NCBI GenBank assembly: GCA_945871915.1
Contig: CAMBXO010000006.1
Coordinates: 1-64,000, forward strand
Length of the DNA: 64,000 nucleotides
DNA from: Singulisphaera sp. GP187
Lineage (GTDB): Bacteria > Planctomycetota > Phycisphaerae > Phycisphaerales > SM1A02
Direction: 5' to 3'
The position numbers and the translations under genes were made by a program. The notes beneath the pieces are model-generated. The model was not told the origin of the DNA, did no database searches, and saw only the letters and a list, made by a program, of their open reading frames with translations. Below, piece after piece: positions 11,607 through 14,078 of this stretch (within the stretch, counting starts at the first letter, position 1; the number at the start of each line of letters is the position of its first letter).

Positions 11607-13391
11607 GTGGCCCGAAAGAAACTGGACAATGCAACGACTGAACCAGAAGCCGACGGGCTTTTGATTCGTGGCGCGCCGGCGGAACCTGCCAAGTCATCCA
11701 CGGGTTACACCGTATTGGCCCGTCGCTATCGCAGCCGAAGTTTTGACGAACTCATCGGGCAGGAATCCATTTCGCGAACGCTCAAAAACGCCATCACCAT
11801 GGGGCGAACGGCTCACGCGTATTTGTTCTGCGGTACGCGTGGCGTGGGCAAGACCAGCATGGCCCGCATCTTTGCACGTTCGCTCAATGCGACGGAAAAT
11901 CTCTCACAGTCAGAGGAAATTGCCGCAAGCATTCTGCGTGGCGAGGACTTGGATGTCATTGAAATCGACGGTGCCAGCAACCGAGGCGTGGATGACGCGC
12001 GAGATCTTATTTCCAAGGCCGGCATTGCTCCGGCTCGCAGCCCGTATCGCATTTACATCATTGATGAAGTGCACATGCTTACCACGCCGGCATTCAATGC
12101 CATGTTGAAGACCATGGAGGAGCCGCCGGCGCATGTGAAATTTATTCTGTGCACCACGGAACCGCACAAAGTGCCGGCCACCATTCAGAGTCGCTGCCAG
12201 CGATTCGATTTTCGACCGATTCCCACCAGTCGAATTGCGGAGCATCTGCGAAGTGTGCTGACACAAGAGCGGCTTCAAGCCGAGGATGAGGCGCTGCAAC
12301 TGGTCGCTCGCATGGGCAATGGAAGCATGCGAGACGCTTTGAGTTTGCTGGATCGACTGATTGCCGCAGCCGATGGAGTGATCACCACTCAATTGGCAGA
12401 AGAAGTGATGGGTCTTCCACATGCAACGCTTCTTGGCGCGGTCACCAAGGCGGTGGTTGCGGGGGATGCCAAAGCGGGGCTGCTGGCGGGTGCTGCGTTA
12501 CTTGAAAGTGGTTGCCCAGTTGAGCAAGCCATGGAACTTCTGGCGGGTCGGCTTCGAGATTTGTTGGTGCTGCGTACATGCGGACTGCCATGCGACTTGG
12601 TTGACTTGGCTCCCGAAGCCAAGGCGATCGCAAGCAGTGAGGCGGCTCACTTTCAAAGTGAGGAGTTGGTGCATCTGATTGCCGTTTGCGAAGCGGCGCA
12701 TCGAGCCTTACGCAATACCGGTACGCCTCGAACGATTTTTGATGCCACGCTTGCACGATTGTGTTTGCACCGAGGCTTTGAGGCGATTGAGTCCAGCCGC
12801 TCGGTTGGTGCTGCGGACGAAAAAAAAAAGGTAGGTGACTTTGCGGCACCCGCTGCGCCGGTTGCGCCCGTTTTCAAAGGTGCAATGCCCCGTGAATCGC
12901 CCTCGCATCCACCAGTCGTGGCGGCTCCTGCCGCGCGACCTTCTCATGTGGCCGCCACACAGCAGCAACCCGCACCTCGCACCGTTCACGAAGCGTGGCA
13001 GCGCGTAATCGATGTGGCGACCGCACCTCGTGAGGCGGCCATTGTGGAATCCGTGGAACCGGTCAGTATGGAAGACAACTGCTTGCGACTGCGTGTTGCA
13101 CGCGATGCAGGACCCGGTGCAGCGTTTGCGGCGCGACGCATGGACCCGCTTATGGATCTTGTTTGTAAAGCGCTCGGAGCTTCATGGAAAGTGACTGTGG
13201 AGCCATTGCCAGAGAGCGCACCGGTAGTTGCCTTGACACCTCATGGACTCGATGCCGACATTGCTTCACACCCATTGGTTCGAGAGGCGATGGAAGCGTT
13301 TGATGCCGTGATCATCAAGGTGCAGCATCGCAGCGAGGTCACCGTTGATCCAGAGCATGCTGCGTTGCCGGATGCGCAGGCTGGGGCGTAG
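11607..13391 (+). CDS. dnaX: DNA polymerase III subunits gamma/tau
   Basis: Clamp-loader ATPase of the replisome. The 594-residue protein has an AAA+ domain with Walker A GTRGVGKT (76-83), Walker B DEVH (153-156), the ATIQSRCQRFDF region and a C-terminal tau-like part. Start is the GTG at 11607 with GGAG 5 nt upstream, 16 nt after the SRP RNA. The four-Cys zinc module normally found after ARSLN is missing: residues 91-115 contain no cysteine. At residues 405-408 the codons gaa aaa aaa aag form a run of ten A, with a stop immediately downstream in both the -1 frame (TGA 12836-12838) and the +1 frame (TAG 12832-12834), suggesting that a short gamma form of about 410 residues is made by slippage. 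Confidence 0.95.
   Translation: MARKKLDNATTEPEADGLLIRGAPAEPAKSSTGYTVLARRYRSRSFDELIGQESISRTLKNAITMGRTAHAYLFCGTRGVGKTSMARIFARSLNATENLSQSEEIAASILRGEDLDVIEIDGASNRGVDDARDLISKAGIAPARSPYRIYIIDEVHMLTTPAFNAMLKTMEEPPAHVKFILCTTEPHKVPATIQSRCQRFDFRPIPTSRIAEHLRSVLTQERLQAEDEALQLVARMGNGSMRDALSLLDRLIAAADGVITTQLAEEVMGLPHATLLGAVTKAVVAGDAKAGLLAGAALLESGCPVEQAMELLAGRLRDLLVLRTCGLPCDLVDLAPEAKAIASSEAAHFQSEELVHLIAVCEAAHRALRNTGTPRTIFDATLARLCLHRGFEAIESSRSVGAADEKKKVGDFAAPAAPVAPVFKGAMPRESPSHPPVVAAPAARPSHVAATQQQPAPRTVHEAWQRVIDVATAPREAAIVESVEPVSMEDNCLRLRVARDAGPGAAFAARRMDPLMDLVCKALGASWKVTVEPLPESAPVVALTPHGLDADIASHPLVREAMEAFDAVIIKVQHRSEVTVDPEHAALPDAQAGA
12820..12829 (+). other. A10 slippage/frameshift site in dnaX
   Basis: Ten consecutive A residues precede ggtaggtga. 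In the zero frame translation continues; in -1 it reads GGT AGG TGA and in +1 it reads TAG. Loss or gain of one base therefore ends the protein within three codons, just after the AAA+ and collar region. Confidence 0.7.
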
Positions 13392-13400
13392 CATTTGCGT

Positions 13401-14078
13401 ATGCGTTCGCCACAACAAGGGGCCGAGTCTGCGTCCAATGCTCGTCCGCAACAGGGCGGGCACCCGGAACCTGTTCAGAAATTGATCGAAGCATTCTCGC
13501 GACTCCCCGGGATTGGCCGGCGCACGGCGGAGCGGCTGGCCTTTCATGTGCTCAAAAATTCTCCGGCCGATGCGCATGCTTTGTCGCACGCCATCAACAC
13601 CGTCAAAGAACAAGTGAAAAATTGCCGCATTTGCTTCAACCTCACCGATCTGGAAACCTGTTCCATTTGCAGCGATCCAAGGCGAGACGCTGCGGTGGTG
13701 ATGGTGGTGGAGCAGCCAAAGGACTTATGGACTCTGGAACGAACCGGTGCGCACCGCGGCGTTTTTCACTGCCTGATGGGGCGATTGGAACCGCTCGATG
13801 GTGTTGGCCCCGAAGCGATTACCGTGCGTGAATTGCTGCGGCGCGTGGAGCATCCAGAACACAATGCTCGCGGGATCAAGGTGACGGAAGTGATTCTGGC
13901 AACCAATCCAGACTTGGAGGGGGACAGCACCGGCTTGTACCTAGCGGATCGGCTCAGCCATCTTGGTGTCACGGTCACGCGATTGGCTCGAGGCCTTCCC
14001 GCGGGAAGTCAGATTGAGTTTGCGCAGCGAGGCGCGCTGGCTGATGCCATTGCAGGTCGCCATCGCATGCCAGGATGA
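13401..14078 (+). CDS. recR: Recombination mediator protein RecR
   Basis: Works with RecO/RecF in loading RecA at gaps. The 225-residue protein has an N-terminal helix-hairpin-helix (SRLPGIGRRTAERLAFHV), a C4 zinc finger (CRIC ... CSICSD), a Toprim domain (VVMVVEQPKDLW) and the C-terminal TRLARGLPAGSQIEFA motif. The ATG at 13401 lies 9 nt after the dnaX stop. The ybaB gene that usually sits between dnaX and recR is absent. The stop abuts an in-frame ATG of rpoN. Confidence 0.95.
   Translation: MRSPQQGAESASNARPQQGGHPEPVQKLIEAFSRLPGIGRRTAERLAFHVLKNSPADAHALSHAINTVKEQVKNCRICFNLTDLETCSICSDPRRDAAVVMVVEQPKDLWTLERTGAHRGVFHCLMGRLEPLDGVGPEAITVRELLRRVEHPEHNARGIKVTEVILATNPDLEGDSTGLYLADRLSHLGVTVTRLARGLPAGSQIEFAQRGALADAIAGRHRMPG

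Follow-up and report, generated by a model that had tools for sequence, protein, structure and literature searches.

Background

The dnaX gene of Singulisphaera sp. GP187 carries ten consecutive A's within its coding sequence, with stop codons shortly afterwards in both alternative frames. This raises the question of whether a single gene gives two proteins, the long tau and a short, gamma-like DnaX, and whether it is RNA polymerase or the ribosome that would slip. Both mechanisms are established for dnaX: transcriptional slippage at a run of nine A's (A9) in Thermus thermophilus, and a programmed -1 ribosomal frameshift in Escherichia coli (PMC1088944, PMC5009743). Orthologues of the gene are described as differing in mechanism, and orthologues that need shifts in both directions serve as a criterion for transcriptional slippage (PMC3711429).

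In this report, we follow up an original prediction, made from the DNA of this locus, that the run is a site of RNA-polymerase slippage. We describe the site and its gene, and compare them with dnaX loci from the same order, from other orders of the class and from named bacteria.

The dnaX gene and its run of ten A's

The window, that is, the whole stretch of DNA analyzed, comprises 64,000 nucleotides and has a GC content of 57.5%. Its dnaX gene, delimited from the open reading frame list and profile matches, lies on the forward strand, as do all features below unless stated otherwise; in the tau frame it extends from a predicted GTG start to the stop codon included (11607 to 13391) and encodes 594 amino acids. 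NCBIfam profile searches matched TIGR02397 (dnaX_nterm, E 1.7e-113) and PRK05563, the Pfam domains DNA_pol3_delta2 and DNAX_ATPase_lid were matched as well, and a PDB sequence match to the solved E. coli gamma/tau chains had an E value of 1.7e-68; these matches identify the gene as dnaX and include its AAA+ clamp-loader core. The clamp-loader part, common to tau and gamma, corresponds to residues 34 to 386 (11706 to 12764, TIGR02397 match). The tau-specific linker and C-terminal domain, which would be missing from the short form, occupy 12831 to 13388; this C-terminal part is matched in relatives, the longest matches reaching query residue 586 or so. In E. coli, the tau tail is the part that binds polymerase and helicase. 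Directly 3' of dnaX lies recR (13395 to 14078; TIGR00615, E 8.2e-66). The best eight named dnaX matches (L053 to L060) are all labelled Planctomycetota, Planctomycetaceae, Phycisphaerales or Phycisphaeraceae.

A separate observation concerns the core. Residues 81 to 124 of the window DnaX (11847 to 11978), between the Walker A GKT and the EIDGAS motif, contain no cysteine. The same was read by eye in 20 loci of the order, and nine more of its loci have none or one there (locus ranges L003 to L232 and L284 to L368); other orders of the class mostly have four to six, the exceptions being two f11 loci (none) and one f20 locus (two). We take the cysteine-bearing stretch between these motifs to be the DnaX zinc module, and the comparison suggests that the module may have been lost in the window's order.

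The run lies just past the clamp-loader core, the dnaX_nterm profile ending at residue 386. As the original prediction had it, an exact A10 falls on codons 405 to 408; it occupies 12820 to 12829, between ...GCGGACG on its 5' side and GGTAGGTGAC on its 3' side, and this predicted slippage site has run phase 1, the in-frame reading being GAA AAA AAA AAG GTA GGT GAC. The two stops that had been announced were also found in place. Past the run, the +1 frame reads AGG TAG, and transcripts with nine or twelve A's would end at this TAG (12832 to 12834), with translated products of 408 and 409 amino acids, respectively. The -1 frame reads GGT AGG TGA, and transcripts with eleven or eight A's, or a ribosomal -1 slip, would end at the TGA (12836 to 12838), with 410 amino acids for A11 and 409 for A8. 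The predicted masses are about 44 kDa for the short products and 63.5 kDa for tau. Both non-tau frames are thus closed within three codons of the run, while none of 115 control codons further downstream in the window dnaX has equally close stops in both wrong frames.

An A_AAA_AAG heptamer (12824 to 12830), partly within the run and in the same frame as in the E. coli control, is a possible ribosomal -1 site. None of the Shine-Dalgarno (SD)-like tetramers GGAG, AGGA, GAGG, AGGG and GGGG occurs within 18 nt 5' of the run, in keeping with the original prediction, which had noted that an upstream SD-like stimulator is absent. The downstream fold has a minimum free energy (MFE) of -13.9 and a z-score of +0.8.

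Searched on both strands, the window's assembly (2.24 Mb in 20 contigs) contains two A10, no exact A9 and 20 exact A8. The other A10 (L001, 1501 to 1510, that is, G000:C1:24353-24362, minus strand) lies at or just past a stop codon, and the gene that precedes it is read as a putative cytochrome-c-peroxidase-like gene. The dnaX run is the sole A10 well inside a gene in this assembly. One chance A10 per genome is unremarkable; what exceeds chance is the place of this one, its conservation and its stops.

Genomes and loci compared

For the order, very probably Phycisphaerales, 201 genomes were searched, and 197 gave matches at E <= 0.001, a number that includes fragments and paralogues; among the matches listed, 150 dnaX loci, one per genome, were analyzed, three of which are cut by contig ends, leaving 147 uncut. 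Nine more loci of the order lie outside these 150 and outside the statistics, except for three that enter one count of tau frames below. The class survey covered 198 genomes, 164 of them from other orders, and 76 other-order loci were hand-picked to spread over families (71 genera, 16 families). A further 80 named loci were looked through by eye only.

The frame called tau was judged by open length rather than by homology of the tail. G_GGA_AAA sites were searched in frame only, and A7 runs were found without a frame filter. Folding z-scores compare the 50 nt downstream with dinucleotide shuffles, per genus, and stop distances are also ranked, as quantiles, against the gene's remaining codons to allow for base composition. 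Kinship makes the sequences statistically dependent, an effect that tests at the genus level reduce without removing.

Conservation of the run

Slip sites in the 150 loci fall into a few types: 91 loci have a run of A9 to A11 (hereafter A>=9), three have A8 and 50 an in-frame heptamer, while three loci are cut and three have no site. Within the A>=9 class, A10 is by far the commonest length (75 loci, with 15 A9 and one A11). The original prediction had proposed aligning the run across related genomes, and in the window's genus the expectation held for 15 of the 16 analyzed genomes, which have A10; the remaining one has A8 (L050, the other A8 loci of the order being L202 and L212). Codon 405 in this genus is GAA or CAA (E to Q) and codon 408 is AAG or AAC (K to N), the run being kept. 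Upstream in the genes, AAG accounts for 65% of Lys codons in the window's genus and for 76% over all A>=9 loci, and elsewhere in the 526,093 bases of the order's dnaX loci (63% GC) there is one A run of nine or more and no such T run. The comparison shows that, at the level of DNA, the run is conserved as a run rather than as lysines.

Relatives in which synonymous AAG codons interrupt the run had been named beforehand as evidence against a slippage site. Most of the 147 uncut loci keep a long run, but 50 have a heptamer instead and three are without a site. Among the siteless loci, L145 indeed encodes its linker lysines as AAG AAG AAG. All three (L145, L156 and L171) belong to genus g35, where no slip site of any kind was found in them and where the sister locus L154 keeps A10; if confirmed, they would represent a natural loss of dual coding.

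Beyond the order, 63 of the 76 loci have A9 or A10, in all phases, 12 have no site that we could find and one has a chance-like heptamer. Tau is in frame 0 in 49 of the 63, in -1 in ten and in +1 in two, with two unclear, and both remaining frames are mostly closed. Elsewhere in 245,822 bases of these loci there are two A8 runs and none longer. Among the named loci, inspection by eye found A9 or A10, with both wrong frames closed within 10 codons, in Gemmata sp. IIL30 (A9) and Aporhodopirellula aestuarii (A10), and the same pattern in one bin each of Schlesneria, Taibaiella and Ignavibacteria; in many of the remaining named loci, a number of Bacillota among them, no such run was seen by eye.

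Long runs and heptamers as two classes of site

The 50 heptamers comprise 39 A7 sites, all of them A_AAA_AAA and none A_AAA_AAG, together with ten G_GGA_AAA and one G_GGA_AAG. Long runs and A7 sites differ in codon phase. The 91 A>=9 runs occur in phases 1, 2 and 0 at 48, 26 and 17 loci (20, 20 and 8 genera), whereas loci whose longest run is A7 are in phase 2 in 39 of 39 cases, as a ribosomal heptamer requires.

The surrounding stops differ as well. Where tau is in frame 0, both wrong frames are closed within 15 codons at 75 of 81 A>=9 loci, compared to 1167 of 8771 control positions (13.3%); the six exceptions are four g44 loci, with a -1 stop at 17 codons, and L203 and L204. At the corresponding heptamer loci, the -1 frame is closed within this distance in 13 of 14 and the +1 frame in 3 of 14. 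The median distance to the +1 stop, taken per genus, is 3 codons for A>=9 (45 genera) versus 56 for heptamers (27 genera; p = 6e-11). Expressed as mean quantiles for loci with tau in frame 0, the contrast resides in the +1 frame (0.13 for A>=9 versus 0.57 for heptamers) and not in the -1 frame (0.17 versus 0.11).

Downstream folding separates the classes in the same way, with a z-score per genus of -0.11 for A>=9 (46 genera) versus -2.17 for heptamers (27 genera; p = 4e-8); for the 63 other-order A9/A10 loci the mean is 0.05. Consensus stems are strong in the heptamer genera g17, g18, g29, g45 and g46 (-15.5 to -30.4 kcal/mol) and weaker in g26 (-10.2 kcal/mol), and the consensus folds of seven A>=9 control genera range from 0 to -10.5 kcal/mol. 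SD-like tetramers precede 26 of 91 A>=9 runs versus 37 of 50 heptamers (p = 2e-7), or 18 of 91 versus 24 of 50 in a stricter window (p = 9e-4); both counts are uncorrected for base composition and are used in support only. With their hairpins and unconstrained +1 frame, the heptamer loci look as expected for ribosomal -1 frameshifting.

Folding and stops tell the classes apart as populations but not gene by gene, because the proven E. coli site itself has a z-score of 0.13 (MFE -19.1) and a +1 stop 11 codons away; with this control score, folding z was dropped as a single-gene test. Two-sided base-pair changes were likewise rejected as proof of the heptamer stems, since they are seen in both groups and are therefore indecisive: heptamer genera g17, g26, g29, g45, g46 and g18 have 2, 3, 2, 1, 3 and 0, respectively, while among the seven A>=9 control folds tried, which are weak, g34 has 3, g83 has 3 and g8 has 2. 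In the g46 consensus stem, 20 of 70 cells are broken.

Ten loci (L193, L201, L206, L208, L214, L184, L185, L165, L180 and L142) have an in-frame G_GGA_AAA followed by GC-rich sequence that is predicted to fold; in nine of them frame 0 runs into a stop within 6 codons and the tau frame is -1. G_GGA_AAA in these relatives would be a ribosomal slip motif different from that of E. coli.

Two tRNA-Lys have been noted for Thermus and may favor polymerase slippage (PMC5009743). In the window's genome, tRNA-Lys(TTT) and tRNA-Lys(CTT) are both present (30 of 47 tRNA matches scanned). As a marker of mode, the pair was rejected: tRNA-Lys(CTT) is also matched in the A_AAA_AAA genera g17, g18, g26 and g45, and the search pattern is insensitive, its TTT version matching 120 of 201 genomes, so that absences carry no weight. 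At the two ends of contig C17 (1 to 275 and 21652 to 21926), tRNA gene pairs of equal score stand in opposite orientation, which suggests a terminal inverted repeat or an assembly artefact.

Changes of frame and of mode

Tau is not always in the frame that the DNA keeps open. In the flipped arrangement (ARRANGEMENTS), found at 22 A>=9 loci, the frame of the DNA meets a stop a short way past the run and the tau frame is -1; nine of these loci belong to the 150 and ten to other orders, the others being L285, L351 and L353. Three A>=9 loci have the long frame in +1 (L223, L284 and L298), L223 coming from a two-contig assembly in which a homopolymer error is conceivable, and the frame of L298 continuing open as far as its contig reaches. 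Barring sequencing errors, such flipped relatives would need a shift to make tau at all. Relatives would need shifts in opposite directions, which is the criterion of PMC3711429 for slippage in transcription. Among heptamer loci, tau is in -1 in 36 of 50.

These states were placed on a quick maximum-likelihood tree of the DnaX core with 93 rows, one per genus and state, five of them from other orders. The tree requires at least eight changes between A>=9 and heptamer (88 rows) and at least 17 changes of tau frame (89 rows), with at least five mode changes in family f1 alone, the window's family (44 rows); all these counts are minima, on a tree with no inferred root and 31 of 90 inner branches weakly supported. 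A single clade of all f1 heptamer users was rejected (AU test p = 0.0006, run post hoc on the quick tree). The window's genus groups with the heptamer users g26, g16, g29, g45, g17 and g27 (SH-aLRT 89), as an open fork.

A phase-2 A10 that loses one Lys codon is exactly A_AAA_AAA. Within a single order, polymerase slippage on A9 to A11 and ribosomal -1 frameshifting on A_AAA_AAA or G_GGA_AAA with stem-loops have probably interchanged repeatedly at the same spot, with the frame-0 product flipping between tau and gamma and with phase-2 A10 as the bridge between the two modes.

Transcriptional slippage and the alternatives

The A10 of the window is very probably a programmed transcriptional-slippage (realignment) site that yields two DnaX proteins from one gene. 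RNA polymerase would add or skip A's on the run and produce a mixed population of mRNAs; those with 10 (or 10+3n) A's would give tau, and those with other counts would be terminated a few codons on, as a gamma-like subunit of 408 to 410 amino acids that is devoid of the tau tail. Our comparison documents the anatomy of the site, the conservation of the run, its free codon phase, the closing of both wrong frames and the lack of ribosomal stimulators at the population level, all of them as properties of sequences; that slippage is frequent enough to be useful, and that the cell makes and uses both proteins, we infer. The window itself has nine or more A's and close stops in both non-tau frames, as in Thermus-type sites, while independence from phase and from stimulators comes from the relatives and holds for the population. 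Since the run is phase-free, both wrong frames are closed and there is no population-level hairpin, slippage by RNA polymerase would be the most likely mechanism. The comparison, including the lower frequency of SD-like tetramers, thereby lends support to the mechanism of the original prediction, as well as to the short DnaX of about 410 residues that it had placed beside the 594-residue tau. Counting against slippage are the 26 of 91 runs with SD-like tetramers, the A8 of L050, the three of four g35 loci without a run and the 12 of 76 siteless loci in other orders.

Because any A10, whatever its phase, includes an in-frame A_AAA_AAA or A_AAA_AAG, ribosomal -1 slippage is possible at the same place. 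It appears unlikely to act alone, with ribosomes slipping on A_AAA_AAG, reading GGT AGG and stopping at the TGA at 12836 to make the same 410-residue product. The heptamer at 12824 to 12830 is in the correct phase with a -1 stop close by, and in sister genera of its family the slip sites are 7-base heptamers accompanied by hairpins and SD-like sequences, but the window lacks an SD-like tetramer within 18 nt upstream, its downstream fold has a z-score of +0.8, and its A>=9 relatives are phase-free, with a closed +1 frame for which -1 slippage has no need, and in L284, L298 and L223 with tau in +1. Somewhat less doubtful, and still on the improbable side, is a combination on one run, polymerase slippage being the main process and some ribosomal -1 shifting being added; this is a sub-case of the transcriptional reading, and its probability overlaps with that given above. 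The run does present both signals at once, the relation of phase-2 A10 to A_AAA_AAA is such that one process could shade into the other, and A8 sites exist (L050, L202 and L212), although the A>=9 sites as a group are without stimulators.

Two further explanations were considered. It is very unlikely that the run is a by-product of a Lys-rich linker, without recoding and with tau as the only product. The linker is variable, the site is missing from 12 of 76 other-order loci and from three of four in g35, and lysines in g35 can persist without slippage because the PKKKP of L145 is encoded by AAG AAG AAG. Nevertheless, the residues encoded differ between the three phases in which the run persists, AAG outnumbers AAA among upstream Lys codons (in the genus as over all A>=9 loci), 91 long runs at the site face a single one elsewhere, stops are close in both wrong frames, and the 22 relatives with tau in -1 and three with tau in +1 would need a shift, sequencing errors aside. 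Phase variation at the DNA level, in which the length of the run would vary between cells and switch tau on and off, is hardly credible: a run as long as A10 can mutate in DNA, but 75 of the 91 A>=9 loci, and 15 of the 16 genomes analyzed in the genus, have A10 exactly, and the bacteria in which DnaX has been studied cannot do without it.

Significance and comparison with known systems

If transcriptional slippage is the mechanism, these loci add a large and little-studied bacterial group whose dnaX, a replication gene, seems to rely on slippage by the polymerase. They also offer a natural experiment, as 91 analyzed loci look polymerase-slipped and 50 ribosome-slipped in the same codon region within one order. 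That the signal for a short DnaX persists is relevant to a long-standing question, whether gamma matters, and the contrasts suggest that slippage in transcription may be told from slippage in translation by statistics over many relatives, namely codon phase, +1-frame stops and hairpins. The kind of site is already known, from Thermus and from the A10 dnaX genes of a 2013 survey, and the repeated switching of mode is more interesting than the site itself. A literature search, mostly without subscription papers, returned no description of such a site in Planctomycetota, nor of repeated switching within one order.

The 2013 GeneTack survey reported 17 two-ORF dnaX genes in 12 genera, nine of them with 10 A's, which were read as transcriptional slippage (PMC3711429). 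Planctomycetota may be among these nine. The Planctomycetes row of the genome table in that paper starts with '2 2', which we read as two species or genomes. The window shares the A10 in dnaX with these genes, but in the survey's description gamma occupies frame 0 and tau requires -1, whereas in the window tau is in frame 0; its relatives show both arrangements, with 22 A>=9 loci in -1 and three in +1.

With E. coli dnaX (L369), the window has in common the gene, a similar place in it, the same kind of short product and an A_AAA_AAG in the same phase. E. coli differs in having A6G with an SD-like sequence and a stem-loop, where the window has A10 and no SD-like sequence, and the +1 stop is one codon after the run in the window versus 11 codons in E. 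coli. The likeness to Thermus, drawn from published descriptions rather than from its sequence, comprises an A run within the coding part of dnaX, a single open reading frame for tau, near stops in both non-zero frames and two tRNA-Lys. The two differ in that Thermus has A9 and the window A10, and in that slippage has been demonstrated in Thermus, while in the window it is deduced from the comparison of relatives.
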